From contig NZ_JAMGBA010000001.1 in NCBI RefSeq assembly GCF_023516455.1, positions 248,001 to 312,000 on the forward strand: a stretch of 64,000 bases of DNA. Direction: 5' to 3'. Both the position numbers and the translations under genes were made by a program. Positions 34,062-60,813 of this stretch are shown here, in pieces. Source of the stretch: Sphingomonas caseinilytica. GTDB lineage: Bacteria; Pseudomonadota; Alphaproteobacteria; Sphingomonadales; Sphingomonadaceae. The notes beneath the pieces were generated by a model. The model saw only the letters and a list, made by a program, of their open reading frames with translations, did no database searches and was not told where the DNA came from. Within the stretch, counting starts at the first letter, position 1. Each line of letters starts with the position of its first letter.

Positions 34062-37000
34062 ATGTCCGTGCCGTACGTCCCGCTGCGTGTTTTTTCCTCG
34101 TTCACGATGCTCGAAGGCGCGATCGAGCCCAAGCTTATCGCGAAGCATGCAGCCAAGCTCGGATTTCCTGCCGTTGGGCTTAATGATCGCAACGGACTTT
34201 ACGCCGCAATGGCCTTTGGCGAGGCCTGTCAGGATGCCGGCGTTCAGCCGGTTGTCGGCGCCATGCTCGGGGTGGCTCGGCCCGCCGATATCGGTCCAGC
34301 GAATTCCATCGATTGGCTGGTTCTGCTGGCGCAGGACGAGACGGGTTATGACAACCTCTGCCGTTTGGTATCGGCGGCCCATCTCGATCGCCCCGTCCAC
34401 GAGGATCCTCATGTGTCGATGGAGGCGCTGGAGGGTGCGACCGACGGGCTCATCTGCCTGACGGCGGGTGGGGAGGGCGCACTCGCCCGGCTGTTCTCCG
34501 ATGGTCAGTCGGACAAGGCCGGGAGCTACGCCGGACGGCTGAAGGCATTGTTCCCGAACCGCCTTTATTTCGAACTGTCACGACGGGGCGACGCAGTCGA
34601 AGAAGCGGCCGAAGCGCAGCTGATCGACCTCGCATATGCGCTCGACGTCCCGATCGTCGCGACCAATCCGGCCCAATATGCCGAGCCGGATTTCCACGCG
34701 GCGCATGACGCGATGATGTGCATCGCCGGATCGACCTATGTCGAAAATGACGACCGGCCGCGCAGTTCGTCCGAGGCTTGGCTCAAGCCCGCGCCGGTAA
34801 TGGAGCAGCTATTCGCCGACTTGCCCGAGGCCATCGCAAACACGGCCGTGATTGCCCAGCGTTGCGCCGTTTCCGCGCCTAAGCGGCGGCCGATCCTTCC
34901 GAGGCTGAGCGACGATGAGGATGAAACGCTTCGCCGCGATGCGCATGCCGGCCTCGACAAAAGGATCGAGGGGAAAACGGAAGAGGAAAAGACCGCGTAT
35001 CGTGAGCGGCTCGACTTCGAGATCGACGTCATCACGCGCATGGGCTTCGCGGGTTACTTCCTGATCGTCGCCGACTTCATTCAGTGGGCCAAGGCGAATG
35101 ATATTCCGGTTGGCCCGGGACGTGGTTCGGGCGCCGGAAGCGTTGTCGCCTGGGCGCTGACAATCACGGATCTCGACCCCATTGAACTGAACCTGCTGTT
35201 CGAACGCTTCCTGAACCCGGAACGCGTTTCGATGCCGGACTTCGACATCGACTTCTGCGAAACGCATCGCGACAAGGTCATCGCCTACGTCCAGCAGAAA
35301 TATGGGCGCGACAAGGTCGCCCAGATCATCACTTTCGGCCGTCTGAAGGCGCGCGCCGTGCTGAAGGACACGGGCCGCGTGCTCCAGATGAGCTACGGCC
35401 AAGTCGACCGGTTGGCGAAGCTGGTGCCCAACCATCCCACTGACCCCTGGACGCTCGAACGCAGCCTCAACGGCGTTGGGGAGCTGGAGAAGGAATATCG
35501 CTCCGACCCCGACGTGAAGCGGCTGTTCGATCTGGCGATGAAGCTGGAGGGCCTGCCGCGCCACAGCTCGACCCACGCCGCCGGCGTCGTCATCGGCGAC
35601 CGACCGCTGTCGGAACTGGTGCCCCTGTACCGCGACCCGCGGTCGGACATGCCGGTCACCCAGTTCGACATGAAATATGTCGAAGGTGCCGGCCTGGTGA
35701 AGTTCGACTTCCTTGGCTTGAAGACGCTGTCGGTGTTGAAGGAAGGCCAGCGGTTGCTCGCCCAGCGCGGGATCGAGGTAGATTTCGCGTCGCTGCAATG
35801 GGACGACCCCGCCGTTTATGAGCTGCTCCAGCGCGGCGACACGGTCGGCGTGTTCCAGCTGGAATCGGAAGGCATGCGGCGCACGCTCGCTGCTGTCCGG
35901 CCCACCAATTTCGGCGATATCATCGCGCTTGTTTCGCTCTACCGGCCCGGCCCGATGGACAACATCCCGCTGTTCGGCGACCGCAAGAACGGCCGCGTTC
36001 CGATCGCCTATCCGCATCCGATGCTGGAAGAGGTGCTGAAGGAAACCTACGGCATCTTCGTCTACCAGGAACAGGTGATGGAGGCCGCAAAAGTGCTGGC
36101 CGGCTACAGCCTCGGCGAAGCGGACTTGCTGCGCCGTGCCATGGGCAAGAAAATCCAGTCGGAGATGAACGAACAGCGCGCCCGCTTCATCGAGGGCGCA
36201 GCGAAGAATGACATCGGTCCGGCCAAGGCCAACGAGCTGTTCGATTTGATCGACAAGTTCGCAGGCTACGGTTTCAACAAGAGCCACGCCGCCGCTTATG
36301 CGCTGGTTGCCTACCACACGGCCTGGCTGAAGGCGCATCATGCACCGGAATTCTTCGCTGCCTCGATGAGCTTCGACATGGCGCAGACCGACAAGCTCTC
36401 ATTGTTCGTGGAGGATATGCGGCGGAGCGAGGTCGATTGCCTTGGGCCGGATGTTAATTCCAGCCAGGCGGATTTCTCCGTCGAGGAGGCGCCAAAGGGG
36501 CTTAGCGTGCGATATGCCCTCGGTGCTCTCAAGGGCGTGGGCGAGAAGGCCATGGAGGCCCTTGTTGCCGAGCGTTCAGCCAATGGGCCTTTCAAGGACC
36601 TCGATCAATTCTCCGAGCGGATCGATCCCAAGCTGCTCAACCGGCGGCAGTTGGAGAGTTTGGCCGGCGCGGGCGCATTCGATGGACTCAATCCGGACCG
36701 CGCTTCGGTCCATGCCGGAGCGGACACCATTCTGGCCCATGCAGCTTCCGCCCACGACCAACGGACCAGCGGCCAGCATGGCCTGTTCGGGGGCGGAGCG
36801 AGCAGCGGCGTTGCTCCGATCCGGCTTCCGAAAGATGCCAGCTGGAATTTGGCCGAGCGAATGGCTGCCGAGCGCGACGCGTTTGGTTTCTACTTCTCGG
36901 CGCACCCCGTCGATGCGCAACGACATGTCCTTGCAGCGCATAAGGTGCGGAGTTTCGCGGAACTGGCGGCAATGCCGGGACCTCCCGAAGGAGGGAGGTC

Positions 37001-49239: not shown

Positions 49240-49968
49240 ATGTCTCAGCTTCAGAACCCCGATAGCCAGCTGACTGCAGTCAAATGGCGATTTCCGTCGG
49301 TCCACCCCGAAGGCCGCAAGTTCACCCTGATCGCCGGTTTTCTGGCGCTGATCGGTTTTCAGGGGCCGGATGTCTTTGGATGGTTGCTGGTAGGTCTGAC
49401 GATCTGGGTCGCGGCATTCTTTCGCGATCCGGTTCGCACTACGCCCGCCGATCCCAAGTTGATTGTCGCGCCAGCAGACGGGTTGGTGACGATGATCAAA
49501 CGGGTGCCAGCGCCGCTGGAGCTGGCAGGCGAGGGCGGGCTTTCCGGTGAGTTCACCCGAGTTTCCATTTTCATGAGCGTGTTCGACGTCCACATCAATC
49601 GCTCGCCGATCGCGGGCACGGTACGCCGCATCGCCTATGTTCCGGGCAAGTTCCTCAATGCCGACCTCGACAAGGCGAGCGAGGACAATGAGCGGCAGCA
49701 TTTCCTGGTCGAACGCGAGGACGGCGTCGCAATCGGCTTCACCCAGATCGCGGGCCTGGTCGCTCGCCGCATCATGTCCTTTGTCAAGGAAGGCGACCGT
49801 GTCGAGGCCGGAGAGCGTATCGGCCTGATCCGCTTCGGCAGCCGCGTCGACGTTTTCCTGCCCGCGGGCACCGGGTCGCAGGTTCTACTCGGCCAACGGA
49901 CGATCGCCGGCGAGACGATCCTGGGTGAACTTGGATCGGATCCGCAGCGCGGCGGGGTCAGCCAGTGA
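49240..49968 (+). CDS. psd: Phosphatidylserine decarboxylase proenzyme (short type)
   Basis: A 242-residue protein with one or two N-terminal membrane segments ([26 protein letters not shown]), [14 protein letters not shown], and the self-cleavage region [11 protein letters not shown], where the Ser becomes the pyruvoyl cofactor. It makes phosphatidylethanolamine from phosphatidylserine at the inner membrane. The ATG at 49240 has aagga upstream. It overlaps pssA by GTGA. Confidence 0.94.
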
Positions 49969-50759
49969 ACGACCGGGGCAGGGGCGGCTTTCCCATCCGG
50001 GCTTTTGTGCCCAATGCAATTACCGCACTCGCCCTCTGCTTCGGCCTGACCGGCGTTCGCTTCGGAATCACCGGCGAATGGCCGCAGGCACTGGCCTGCA
50101 TCGTTGGGGCAGGCGTGCTCGATGGTTTTGACGGACGGATCGCGCGACTTTTGCGGGCGCAGAGCAAGTTCGGAGCCGAGCTCGACAGCCTGTCTGACAA
50201 TATCGCATTCGGTACGGCGCCCGCACTGATCATCTTCCTGTGGTCGCTTCAGGAAGCACCCAGGTTCGGCTGGATCGCCGCGCTGGCACTGGCCGTTTGC
50301 TGCGCTCTGCGTCTTGCACGGTACAATGCCGGCATCGATGCCGATTTCCAGCCGCACAAGTCTGCCGGCTTCAACACCGGCGTTCCAGCGCCGGTTGGGG
50401 CGGGGCTGGCGTTCGTTCCGATCTACCTTTGGCTGATCAGCGGAAACGAGCTGTTTCGCGGCTGGGCACTCGTTCTTCCCTGGACGCTGTTCATTGCACT
50501 GCTGATGATTTCGAACGTCCCCACCTATACCTGGGGCTCGATCCGTATCCGCCGTGGTTGGCGATTGTTCGCTCTTGCCGGCGTGGCCTTGCTTGGCGCA
50601 GCATTGCTCAACGCGCCGTGGATGACGCTGCTGGCGATTTCCGTCATTTACCTTGCACTTCTTCCGTTCAGCATCGCCAGCTATGCCGGGGTCAAGCGGC
50701 GGCGCGCAGCGCAGGCTCCCACAGCGGCTCCAGTTCCACCTCCGTACGCCGCGGATTGA
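49965..50759 (+). CDS. pssA: CDP-diacylglycerol--serine O-phosphatidyltransferase
   Basis: A 264-residue multi-helix CDP-alcohol phosphatidyltransferase. The signature [10 protein letters not shown]...[10 protein letters not shown] carries the conserved aspartates (DG-x2-AR-x8-G-x3-D-x3-D). It makes phosphatidylserine from CDP-diacylglycerol and serine. It is operonic with psd through a GTGA overlap. Its 3' end overlaps the antisense small gene (50692-50913) by 68 bases. Confidence 0.95.
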
Positions 50760-50913
50760 AGCGGATCGTGACGGGCCGGCCTTCGGTCGGTCCTGCCTTC
50801 CAGCTATGTCCTTCAAGCGCCGCGATGACTTTGCCGCCGTCACGTCGAATGACGTCGATAACCAGCGTCAGAATGAAGCCAAACAGTGCGATCGTGAGAG
50901 CGATACCGACCAT
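50692..50913 (-). CDS. Small single-pass membrane protein, 73 residues, apparently LexA-controlled
   Basis: MVGIALTIALFGFILTLVID is an N-terminal membrane helix without a cleavage site. A soluble tail follows: VIRRDGGKVIAALEGHSWKA, then [16 protein letters not shown] clear aaggga Shine-Dalgarno lies 7 bases before the ATG, which supports a real gene although it overlaps the pssA end. About 27 bases upstream is a promoter flanked and covered by two LexA boxes (50949-50998). Small membrane proteins under SOS control often block cell division (SidA/DidA in Caulobacter, YneA in Bacillus), and such a role is inferred only. Confidence 0.7.
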   Translation of the reverse strand: MVGIALTIALFGFILTLVIDVIRRDGGKVIAALEGHSWKAGPTEGRPVTIRFNPRRTEVELEPLWEPALRAAA

Positions 50914-50946
50914 TGAACTATCCCTTCAAACCATCGATTGATTGTT

Positions 50947-50975
50947 ATGTTCTTTAAATGTTCCGCATTCGTCAA
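50947..50975 (-). promoter_or_regulatory. Promoter of the 73-residue membrane protein gene
   Basis: On the minus strand, TTGACG (50975-50970), a 17-base spacer and GAACAT (50952-50947). The -10 hexamer and spacer lie within the first LexA box. The predicted start of transcription is about 50940. Confidence 0.5.
50949..50963. promoter_or_regulatory. LexA box 1 (GTTC-N7-GTTC)
   Basis: GTTCTTTAAATGTTC matches the alphaproteobacterial SOS box exactly. It covers the spacer and -10 of the minus-strand promoter. Confidence 0.75.
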
Positions 50976-50983
50976 GCGAAATT

Positions 50984-50998
50984 GTTCTCTTAATGTTC
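50984..50998. promoter_or_regulatory. LexA box 2 (GTTC-N7-GTTC)
   Basis: GTTCTCTTAATGTTC is a second exact match, 35 bases from box 1, just upstream of the minus-strand -35. The other direction leads to rpsB, 140 bases away. Confidence 0.7.
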
Positions 50999-51039
50999 TT
51001 ATTTGAGCCAACCGCTTGATATCTCACGTTTCATCTTGT

Positions 51040-51120
51040 AGGGGCCCCCGCATCCCACAGGTGGAACCACCATACCGGTGCCGGCCAATTGGCCGGTGAC
51101 ACGGTTCCACCGAGGCATAA
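51040..51120 (+). promoter_or_regulatory. Structured leader of rpsB, probable S2 autoregulation site
   Basis: An outer stem ggtggaacc (51060-51068) with ggttccacc (51103-51111) encloses the perfect palindrome ccggccaattggccgg (51081-51096). Ribosomal protein operons commonly carry such leaders, and rpsB-tsf is autoregulated by S2 in E. coli. A possible promoter is TTGATA (51016-51021), with a poor -10. Confidence 0.55.
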
Positions 51121-51137
51121 CCGGAGGAGATATCCCT

Positions 51138-51893
51138 ATGGCGACCAATGTCGTCACGATGCAGCAATTGCTCGAAGCTGGCGCCCATTTCGGCCACCAG
51201 ACCCACCGCTGGAATCCGCGGATGAAGCCGTACATTTTCGGCGACCGCAACGGCGTTCACATCATCGACTTGTCGCAGAGCGTTCCGCTGTTCGCCCGCG
51301 CGCTCGACTTCGTTCAGCAGACCGTCGCTCGCGGCGGCAAGGTGCTGTTCGTCGGCACCAAGCGCCAGGCGCAGGACGCGGTTGCCGAAGCGGCCCGCAC
51401 CTCGGGCCAGCATTTCGTCAACCACCGCTGGCTCGGCGGCATGCTGACCAACTGGAAGACCATTTCCAACTCCATCAAGCGCTTCAAGAGCCTTGAAGAG
51501 CAGCTGTCGGGCGACACCGCCGGCCTCACCAAGAAGGAAGTGCTCCAGCTGACCCGCGAGCGCGACAAGCTTGAGAACTCGCTCGGCGGTATCCGCGACA
51601 TGGGCGGTCTGCCCGACGTCATGTTCGTCATCGACACGAACAAGGAAGAGCTGGCGATCAAGGAAGCGAACGTCCTGGGTATCCCGGTAATCGCGATCCT
51701 CGACAGCAATTCGAACCCGCAGGGCATCGCTTTCCCGGTCCCGGGCAACGACGACGCCAGCCGCGCGATCCGTCTCTACTGCGAGGCGATCGCCAATGCT
51801 GCCAACACCGGCAAGTCCGGTGGCGCTGCGGCTCGCGGTGAAGACATCGGTGCGATGGCTGAGCCGCCGGCGGAAGCCGCGCTCGAGGCTTAA
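51138..51893 (+). CDS. rpsB: 30S ribosomal protein S2
   Basis: 251 residues: [26 protein letters not shown] at the N-terminus (split here from the family pattern LLEAGxHFGHQ), [10 protein letters not shown] and [12 protein letters not shown]. It binds 16S rRNA in the small subunit. The ATG at 51138 follows ggaggag. The upstream extension is leader RNA. An intercistronic hairpin separates it from tsf. Confidence 0.98.
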
Positions 51894-58068: not shown

Positions 58069-60813
58069 GTGAGTTCCAGCAGCACTCAATTTACCAAGCG
58101 GATGGCCGGCGTATTGTTGGTCGGGACGGTCATCGGCGGTTGGACCTCGCCTGCCTGGGCGCAAGAGGCGCAACCGGCACCGGCACAGCAGCCTCCCGCG
58201 ACGCAGCCGCCGGCGACTCAGCCGGCGCCTACCGCACCTGTGGCTACCGCCGCGGTTGAAGGCGTTATCCGATCCATTCGCGTCGCGGGCTCAGAGCGAT
58301 TGGAGCCCGAAACGGTTCGTAGCTATGCGAACCTCAGTCCCGGGCAGGAGTATAACGCCGAGACGCTCGATCAGGCGTTGAAGGACCTGTACGCGACCGA
58401 ACTGTTCGCCGACGTTGTGATCACAGGAGCCGACACCGGCAATCTGGTCATCACCGTGCGCGAGAACCCGGTGATCAACCGCATTGTCCTGGAGGGCAAT
58501 AAGCGGATCAAGAACGACAAGATCACGCCGGAAATCAAGCTTGCTCCGCGGCAGATCTACACGCGTTCCAAGGTCCGCGCGGACGTGGACCGGATTATCG
58601 AACTGTACCGGCGCCAGGGCCGGTTTGCCGCCACGGTCGAGCCGAAGATCGTGGAACTGGACCAGAACCGAGTCGACCTGATCTTCGAGATTACCGAAGG
58701 CGACAAGTCCAAGGTCCAGGCGATCAACATCATCGGCAACGAAGAATATTCCGATGGCCGGCTCCGGAAGGAAATGTTCACCAAGGAAGCGGGCGGCCTC
58801 CTGGGCTTCTTCAAGTCGAACGACAGTTACGACCCGGATCGCCTCGCCGCTGACCAGCAGAAGCTCCGCGCCTTCTATCTGACTGAGGGATATGCGGATT
58901 TCCGCGTTGTTTCTGCATTGGCCGAACTGACGCCGGACCGCCGGGACTTCATCATTACATATGTCATCGAAGAAGGTCCGCGCTTCAAATTCGGAACCGT
59001 CGACGCGGAAAGCGAACTTCGGGATTTCGACGCCGAATATGTAAAATCGCTACTCAAGATGAAACCGGGCGACTGGTTCAACGCGAAGCTGGTTGAGGAT
59101 ACGGTGACGGGCCTCAATGAGGTTGCCGGCGCTCGTGGCTACGCCTTTGCTGACGTCTCGCCGAACTTCGAGCGCGATGCCGAAGCCAAGACGATGAGCA
59201 TCACGTTCCAGGTTGGAGAAACGCCGCGCGTCTACGTCGAGCGAATCAATATCCAAGGCAACACGGTGACCCGCGACAAGGTCATCCGCCGCGAATTCCG
59301 TTTGAATGAGGGCGATGCGTTCAATGCGTTCAAGGTCAAGCGAAGCCAGGACCGCATCCAGAACCTTGGTTTCTTCCAGGAGAATCTTGAGATCAAGCAG
59401 GTCCAGGGTTCGCAGAACGATCGTGTCGTCCTGAACCTTGACGTCGAGGAAAAATCGACTGGCGAACTCCAGTTGTCGGCTGGCTATTCGAGCCTTGAGA
59501 AATTTATCATTTCCAGTTCGATCGCGCAGCGCAACTTCATGGGCAAGGGCCAGATCCTGCAGGCAGGCGTAAACTGGTCACGCTATTCGCGGGGCGTTTC
59601 GGCGGGCTTCACTGAGCCTTACCTCTTCGACAAGAACATCCTGCTTGGCGGCGAGCTATTCTACCGCGACTTCAACTCGTTCGTTTATGACGAGAACGAC
59701 GACCGCGATGAAACCTATGGGCAGAAATCTCTGGGTGGCGTCCTCCGCCTGGGCTTCCCGGTCACCGAATATGTCACCTTCGGCACTCGCTATTCGCTTA
59801 TCCAGGACGATATCACGCTCGACGAGGACATCTATTTCACCAATCCCGCCGACCCCGACGGCGATGGTCCGCTGCCGGATCCGCCTGCTTTCTGCGATCC
59901 GTTGAAGGCCGGTCGTTATCTTTGCGATGAGCTTGGCAAGAATCTGACGTCGGCGATCGGCGCGACGGTGGCATTCGACAATACGAATGGGATACGCGCG
60001 ACGCGCGGTCATCGGATTATCGCAAGCCAGGACTTCGCCGGGCTTGGCGGCGACGTGAAATATCTGCGCAGCCGCCTCGATGCGACCAAATATTGGGGTC
60101 TGCCGGCCGGATTCGTGCTCTCAGTGCACGGAGAAGGCGGCTACATCCACCCGCTGGAAGACGCGGAAAATCCGGACCAGGATGCCGTCCGCCTGACGGA
60201 TCGCTTCTTCGGCCCCACCATGCGCGGCTTCGACATTCGCGGCATTGGCCCGCGCGTCGTGCGCTTGCCCTATATCGCCGGGGATCCTGCAACCGGGGCG
60301 CCGGTTGTCGACGAAGACGCCGATTTCCTGCTCAGCGACGCGCTGGGTGGCCGTGCCTACTACATGGGACGTATCGAAGTTGAGTTTCCGACCAGCTCGT
60401 CGCTCCGCAGCATGGGGCTGAGGCCGTCGGCGTTCGTAGACATCGGTTCGGTGTTCAAGCTGAAGCAGCCCGATCTCGTCAATTTCCCAGGCAGCTGCAC
60501 CGGCGACGACGGATCTGACGAGGGCACTCTTCCGGATTCGATCACGCTCAACCCGCTGGTCGATGGACAAACCTGCCTTCAGGCCGCCACGGCACAGGGC
60601 AAGACCAACCCAAGTAGTTTCGTCTATAATTCGGGATCCGGCTTCAGGGAGCTGTTCCTGGGGAACTCGGCAAAGCCGCGTCTTTCGGTCGGCATCGGCG
60701 TCAATTGGGTGTCGCCGTTCGGCCCGCTGCGTATCGATATCGCCAAGGCTCTGATGAAGCAGGATGGCGATGAAACCAAATTGTTCTCATTCAACGTAGG
60801 AACCCAATTCTAA
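58069..60813 (+). CDS. bamA: Outer membrane protein assembly factor BamA
   Basis: 914 residues from the GTG at 58069 (ggggaag upstream). A signal peptide (cleaved near AWAQ) is followed by a Pro/Ala/Gln linker, five POTRA repeats (about residues 65-400), then a 16-strand barrel ending in FSFNVGTQF. BamA inserts beta-barrel proteins into the outer membrane. Two Cys pairs lie in long extracellular loops (PAFCDP...YLCDE and GSCTGDD...GQTCLQ). The upstream TTG at 57985 would spoil the signal peptide. Confidence 0.94.
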   Translation: MSSSSTQFTKRMAGVLLVGTVIGGWTSPAWAQEAQPAPAQQPPATQPPATQPAPTAPVATAAVEGVIRSIRVAGSERLEPETVRSYANLSPGQEYNAETLDQALKDLYATELFADVVITGADTGNLVITVRENPVINRIVLEGNKRIKNDKITPEIKLAPRQIYTRSKVRADVDRIIELYRRQGRFAATVEPKIVELDQNRVDLIFEITEGDKSKVQAINIIGNEEYSDGRLRKEMFTKEAGGLLGFFKSNDSYDPDRLAADQQKLRAFYLTEGYADFRVVSALAELTPDRRDFIITYVIEEGPRFKFGTVDAESELRDFDAEYVKSLLKMKPGDWFNAKLVEDTVTGLNEVAGARGYAFADVSPNFERDAEAKTMSITFQVGETPRVYVERINIQGNTVTRDKVIRREFRLNEGDAFNAFKVKRSQDRIQNLGFFQENLEIKQVQGSQNDRVVLNLDVEEKSTGELQLSAGYSSLEKFIISSSIAQRNFMGKGQILQAGVNWSRYSRGVSAGFTEPYLFDKNILLGGELFYRDFNSFVYDENDDRDETYGQKSLGGVLRLGFPVTEYVTFGTRYSLIQDDITLDEDIYFTNPADPDGDGPLPDPPAFCDPLKAGRYLCDELGKNLTSAIGATVAFDNTNGIRATRGHRIIASQDFAGLGGDVKYLRSRLDATKYWGLPAGFVLSVHGEGGYIHPLEDAENPDQDAVRLTDRFFGPTMRGFDIRGIGPRVVRLPYIAGDPATGAPVVDEDADFLLSDALGGRAYYMGRIEVEFPTSSSLRSMGLRPSAFVDIGSVFKLKQPDLVNFPGSCTGDDGSDEGTLPDSITLNPLVDGQTCLQAATAQGKTNPSSFVYNSGSGFRELFLGNSAKPRLSVGIGVNWVSPFGPLRIDIAKALMKQDGDETKLFSFNVGTQF

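Follow-up and report, generated by a model that had tools for sequence, protein, structure and literature searches.

A candidate SOS-induced small membrane protein encoded between pssA and rpsB in Sphingomonadaceae

Results

The locus and its promoter

The window, that is the whole 64,000-nucleotide stretch of Sphingomonas caseinilytica DNA analysed here, contains a 73-codon open reading frame (ORF) on the minus strand at 50692-50913. According to the ORF listing its ATG lies at 50913-50911, and a ribosome-site-like AAGGGA (50921-50926, minus strand) is found 7 nt before this codon. The small gene is flanked by two genes of the plus strand. The convergent neighbour, pssA, encodes a CDP-alcohol phosphatidyltransferase (49965-50759; PF01066, E 4.5e-21), and in the ORF listing its 3' end overlaps the 3' end of the small gene in antisense by 68 bp (50692-50759). 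The divergent neighbour, rpsB, encodes ribosomal protein S2 (51138-51893; PF00318, E 1.7e-93); its ORF is listed from 51078 and the ATG used was that at 51138.

The sequence upstream of the small gene contains a promoter on the minus strand (50947-50975), formed by TTGACG (50975-50970), a 17-nt spacer and GAACAT (50952-50947). Two exact GTTC-N7-GTTC boxes of the LexA type were observed there. The near box, GTTCTTTAAATGTTC (50949-50963), spans 11 nt of the spacer plus four bases of the -10 element, and the far box, GTTCTCTTAATGTTC (50984-50998), stands on the upstream side of the -35 element, 8 nt away from it. Read along the minus strand, the order is thus far box, 8 nt, TTGACG, 17-nt spacer and GAACAT; the near box covers part of the last two elements. 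A preliminary description of this DNA had proposed both boxes, the TTGACG between them and an overlap with spacer and -10, and each was found where it had been placed. A generic sigma-70 scan called no promoter at the small gene, because GAACAT is far from TATAAT.

The window holds five exact matches to the motif, compared with a mean of 1.92 after shuffling, and five were reached in 2 of 100 shuffles. The three other matches lie at 35202-35216, 49639-49653 and 58654-58668, where about two are expected by chance; that at 49639 sits within a long ORF. A count over the whole genome gave 88 exact matches and 78 to the reversed pattern, hence no enrichment, so that a lone box proves little. The evidential weight lies instead in the presence of two boxes in one promoter and in the conservation of boxes in relatives.

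Eighteen stretches were inspected out of the 88 genome matches, with a choice favouring AT-rich boxes. Exact boxes were observed at, or a short way before, the starts of lexA, recA, uvrA, radA, rmuC, a radical-SAM gene of the PA0069 type and a gene for a glutathione transferase, and several of the 18 stretches showed no evident SOS gene. Another box adjoins what we take to be an imuA-like gene, a name given from reading the sequence, which had no family at 1e-10. GTTC-N7-GTTC is the LexA operator of this genome, and the small gene shares it, over its promoter, with lexA and recA. Two boxes of this genome may mark unusual members of the response, one just before the glutathione-transferase-like gene (L060, 1500-1514) and one just before a gene whose product we read as a VOC/glyoxalase protein (L059, 1469-1483). 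Another precedes an ORF read as a metallophosphatase, possibly a further damage-response gene (L057, 1534-1548).

The predicted protein

In alignments the protein comprises an N-terminal membrane helix, a short juxtamembrane helix region (K-x-x-A-A-L-x-G), a basic tail and a C-terminus ending ...LRAAA. The structure predicted with AlphaFold for the 73 residues consists of one N-terminal helix (residues 2-33) and a loose tail, with pLDDT of 87-97 over residues 1-30 and 60-72 thereafter (mean pLDDT 77.8, pTM 0.42). The ORF, the AAGGGA site and the predicted helix agree with the 73-residue single-pass membrane protein with a ribosome site that had been described from the DNA. In this prediction the protein has the size and the single membrane helix of the known class of SOS division inhibitors to which SidA, YneA, SosA and ChiZ belong.

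By the positive-inside rule, the distribution of lysine and arginine on either side of a membrane stretch is an established basis for reading topology. With start codons assigned across loci by a simple rule, no Lys or Arg precedes the hydrophobic stretch in any of 128 loci, more Lys/Arg follow it in 123 of them, and the tail is basic, with a mean net charge of +5.9 over the same 128. Because these residues are absent before and enriched after the stretch, the protein is predicted to be single-pass and N-out/C-in, with a cytoplasmic tail.

Outside the pssA overlap, 15 hand-picked rather than random pairs of relatives gave a pooled pS of 0.394 and a pN of 0.144, which supports a reading of the ORF as protein-coding and under purifying selection.

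The window protein had no match in Pfam, NCBIfam or PADLOC. A profile search of the PDB gave none. No Pfam match was obtained for 41 members of the family or for 13 members of a second branch (see below). In PHROGs, one of the 41 matched an undescribed phrog (E 0.001). A match of one of the 13 second-branch members to an NCBIfam permease model, at 0.0054, was discounted.

Distribution in Sphingomonadaceae

A search with the single sequence found homologues in 19 of 61 genomes (the source genome included), all of them among the 37 genomes of the genus, and in none of the 24 genomes from other families of the order. The other 18 proteins are only 29-48% identical to the window protein. A search of 147 genomes of the order, an unstated share of them from this family, gave 19 matches, all within the family.

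Profiles extended this range considerably. One built from the 19 proteins matched 48 of 397 genomes of the same family, in 14 of 96 genera, and one built from 41 proteins (hereafter the first profile) matched 134 of the 397, in 35 of the 96 genera. A second profile was built from 13 proteins that had been found by their position beside rpsB in genomes missed by the first, and it matched 132 of the 397 genomes, in 41 of the 96 genera. Together the two profiles match 264 of the 397 genomes, a few of them probably falsely, so that the 73-residue frame, which had been expected to recur in relatives, does so. The probable false matches include two weak ones from the 130 genomes compared below, which lie without either neighbour (L213 and L215), and some from the second profile, where genome G169 has its first-profile locus elsewhere. 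A profile-profile comparison of the two branches gave a moderate match (probability 86, 38 columns), and their kinship therefore rests mainly on locus and operator.

The arrangement was seen in one named relative. In Sphingomonas parapaucimobilis YK209 the order is isocitrate dehydrogenase, phosphatidylserine decarboxylase, pssA, a hypothetical protein on the opposite strand, rpsB, tsf, pyrH and frr, the same gene order as in the window. The product annotated as hypothetical (WP_347091504.1; L289, 1896-2375) ends RRRVAA and is matched by the profile with E 1.6e-8 for one sequence. Its annotated start precedes both the promoter and the LexA box of the gene and was probably mis-called by some 80 codons.

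Conservation of the operator and neighbours

For comparison of loci, a set of 130 genomes (131 loci) was assembled from 116 of the 134 first-profile matches and 14 further members of the genus from the single-sequence search; for the second branch, the 30 best-scoring of the 132 matches were examined. In 126 of the 130 genomes and 32 of 34 genera the 260 bp before the small gene contain an exact box, against 3 of 130 for the reversed control pattern. The box is present in all 19 homologues from the single-sequence search, the window gene included. In the second branch the box was observed in 30 of 30 loci and the control in one of 30; the seeds of that profile had been picked from loci already having a box, and only 17 of the 30 loci, those that were not seeds, are independent. 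Among the exceptions in the 130-genome set, locus L168 has no box even at one mismatch, and every box of L085 carries one mismatch. A single box is the rule; loci with two or more, as in the window, are a minority (31 of the 130), and their boxes are most often spaced by 25, 34 or 35 bp. In five loci (L008, L009, L010, L011 and L012) an extra exact GAAC-N7-GAAC box was seen about 20 bp before the ATG, over the likely ribosome site; it follows the promoter box by 85 bp and may be a second LexA site or a chance match kept by descent.

The box is also oriented within a promoter. A TTGAC within 16 nt of it points toward the small gene in 94 of the 126 box-bearing genomes and toward rpsB in one; when one mismatch to TTGACA was allowed, these counts were 95 and six. 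With boxes lying over the promoter, the same motif at lexA and recA, and conservation well beyond the genus, the LexA-repressed arrangement and its persistence with the gene in other Sphingomonadaceae, both suggested in the preliminary description, have held up, and LexA control of the small gene is strongly supported at the level of sequence.

Synteny between pssA and rpsB had likewise been anticipated, and it proved to be usual well beyond the genus. The gene pssA lies tail-to-tail with the small gene in 127 of the 130 genomes, with an overlap of at least 15 bp in 114 of the 127, and a divergent rpsB is found no more than 700 bp away in 105 of the 130. Of the 25 genomes in which no rpsB was seen within that distance, four carry it at 728-1556 bp and two run into the end of the contig before it. 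The box is retained in 22 of these 25, which indicates that it goes with the small gene, and it is still present in genome G110, where rpsB is more than 400 kb away. In the genus g28 no pssA was found adjoining the small gene, and both ORF and box remain; in the three loci read, the small gene is followed by an ORF which, by reading, we take to resemble the phosphatidylserine decarboxylase of the window. In seven loci of the genus g72 (L089, L090, L092, L126, L146, L149 and L152) the box and the gene have opposite orientations, no rpsB is in view beside the gene and the ORF overlaps pssA barely or not at all.

The arrangement of pssA, small gene and rpsB is not universal in the family. Among 20 family genomes picked from the 119 without a first-profile match, an exact box was observed in 14 and pssA was in view in 15; neither box nor pssA lay beside rpsB in four, and in two a membrane ORF occurred without an exact box. 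Outside the family, no box was found upstream of rpsB in any of 22 loci from other families of the order (24 genomes searched, 441-1500 bp in view). The small gene is kept in place and in regulation more than in sequence, and the sequences are too diverged to reveal a conserved contact surface.

The C-terminus

The C-terminal end is the most constant part of the protein. It is Ala-Ala in 116 of 127 loci and another end in 11. Alanine makes up 20% of residues in the family, for which a chance frequency of about 4% would be expected for Ala-Ala, and related loci are not independent. The coding sequence of this end is antisense to pssA in 114 loci, 103 of which end in Ala-Ala, and the antisense overlap may impose the alanine run in part in most loci. 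That the run is wholly a by-product of the overlap is disfavoured: Ala-Ala is also found in all 13 loci, from three genera, whose overlap with pssA is at most 4 bp, and in all six g28 loci. The ssrA (tmRNA) tag of the source genome ends ...AIAA. In Caulobacter, changes to the C-terminal alanines stabilise CtrA, a ClpXP substrate, according to the available part of one report (PMC4433202). We infer that the Ala-Ala end of the small protein may be a signal of the ClpXP type.

Discussion

The features described above can be assembled into a proposal in which the small protein would be a LexA-repressed division inhibitor that serves as a checkpoint, working like SidA, DidA or YneA and cleared by a cytoplasmic protease. 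We would give this reading about an even chance of being right. LexA bound to the boxes would block the promoter of the small gene; DNA damage would lead to RecA-driven cleavage of LexA and release of the promoter, and a small bitopic inner-membrane protein would be made. This protein would hold back division through the late septal machinery (FtsW, FtsI or FtsN), with contact made within the membrane. After repair LexA would again repress the gene, and a cytoplasmic AAA+ protease, most likely ClpXP, would read the C-terminal Ala-Ala and remove the protein. In this scheme we infer the induction by damage, the block of division, its target and the protease. The division reading draws support from precedent, since small membrane proteins made under SOS control that halt division at a late stage form a known class. 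A SulA-family gene (PF03846) was found in none of 41 genomes, 25 of them of the same genus, in a search that matched the E. coli positive control, and the window protein, having no Pfam match, has no SulA domain.

Comparison with known systems shows both likenesses and differences. SidA of Caulobacter crescentus is, like the product of the window gene, an alphaproteobacterial, LexA-controlled and very small inner-membrane protein; it differs in having 29 residues rather than 73, and it acts through FtsW. DidA of the same species is likewise small, with 71 residues, one membrane helix and an ORF that overlaps the end of a neighbouring annotated ORF, but in the accessible descriptions it is induced independently of SOS by DriD, whereas the window gene has LexA boxes and a predicted inside tail. 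SidA interacts with FtsW and DidA with FtsN, as stated in the available portion of one study (PMC4211646). YneA of Bacillus subtilis and SosA of Staphylococcus aureus (77 residues) are described, in the sections consulted, as SOS-induced small proteins with a single helix near the N-terminus and proteolytic turnover. YneA binds the seventh transmembrane segment of FtsW (PMC13396833), and SosA works through an extracellular tail (PMC6851548), both from partial texts. The two differ from the window protein in having, by these same accounts, an extracellular C-terminal part (a LysM domain in YneA) that is removed by membrane proteases such as CtpA, whereas the tail of the window protein is predicted to be cytoplasmic and has an ssrA-like Ala-Ala end. 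No LysM domain of the YneA/ChiZ type was matched by Pfam in the window protein or in 41 relatives, and the tail is predicted inside. Since the activity of SosA and YneA needs the extracellular part, the predicted inside tail would count against the checkpoint reading.

A more specific form of the proposal is put forward tentatively, as possible but on balance doubtful: the small gene would encode a core SOS checkpoint of Sphingomonadaceae, fast-evolving at a fixed locus, with its tail inside and an ssrA-like Ala-Ala end, so that arrest would be ended by a cytoplasmic protease (ClpXP) rather than a membrane or periplasmic one.

Many SOS genes have roles other than division control. The protein could accordingly be an SOS-induced membrane protein with another job, such as a regulator of an envelope enzyme, transporter or membrane protease, or a tether of the nucleoid or the membrane acting through the tail, whose mean net charge of +5.9 over 128 loci would suit such a role. 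The fixed LexA control suits a checkpoint at least as well, and we regard this explanation as unlikely, though deserving of real weight.

Somewhat more improbable is a membrane peptide of the DinQ/TisB type, which would alter the membrane potential or membrane-bound processes and slow growth with no specific inhibition of the divisome. The precedents in Escherichia coli are likewise SOS-induced single-helix inner-membrane peptides, and both the size class and the hydrophobic helix fit; overproduced DinQ depolarises the membrane, so that other modes of SOS action exist (PMC3567139, in the part available). In the partial descriptions at hand, however, DinQ and TisB are set in a toxin-antitoxin arrangement with antisense RNA, and no Rfam family matched at gathering thresholds in 50600-51200 of the window, a search that an undescribed RNA would escape. 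The conserved basic tail and Ala-Ala end would also suggest more than a bare pore-forming helix.

It is very improbable that the SOS transcript rather than the protein acts, by covering the 3' end of pssA in antisense and so lowering the synthesis of phosphatidylserine and then phosphatidylethanolamine. The tail-to-tail pssA in 127 of 130 genomes, overlapping by at least 15 bp in 114, would allow for this, as would the lack of any terminator-like site on the minus strand across 50100-51200, but the ORF appears to be under purifying selection as a protein outside the overlap, the overlap is 4 bp or less in 13 loci, and g28 keeps ORF and box without an adjoining pssA. More improbable still is a role of the boxes in control of the divergent rpsB operon, with the small ORF as a bystander: rpsB is indeed divergent and no more than 700 bp away in 105 of 130 genomes, but the box persists in 22 of the 25 where it was not seen so near and in G110, the -35 beside the box faces the small gene in 94 of 126 genomes and rpsB in one, and none of the 22 rpsB loci of other families has a box.

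In the open literature on SOS and LexA in sphingomonads and alphaproteobacteria, as far as its texts were available and with preprints and most subscription journals outside the search, apparently no report deals with this small gene. A transcriptome of Sphingopyxis during anaerobic growth names lexA, recA, radA, dinG and imuAB-dnaE2 among the induced SOS genes, and the SOS list in the available part of that paper includes no such small protein (PMC6472365).

The reading of the small protein as a checkpoint that inhibits division bears on a general difficulty, in that SOS division inhibitors have short sequences that show no relationship from one group to another and are hence difficult to detect by similarity searches. 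In this case comparative genomics gives a strong candidate for a family without a described example in the open literature searched, as far as its texts were available. The nearly fixed locus makes deletion or induction feasible in many species, the highly diverged natural versions offer a means of mapping the features that such a protein cannot lose, and the Ala-Ala end gives a clear, testable idea of how arrest would be lifted. The small protein may be a missing brake on division after DNA damage in sphingomonads.
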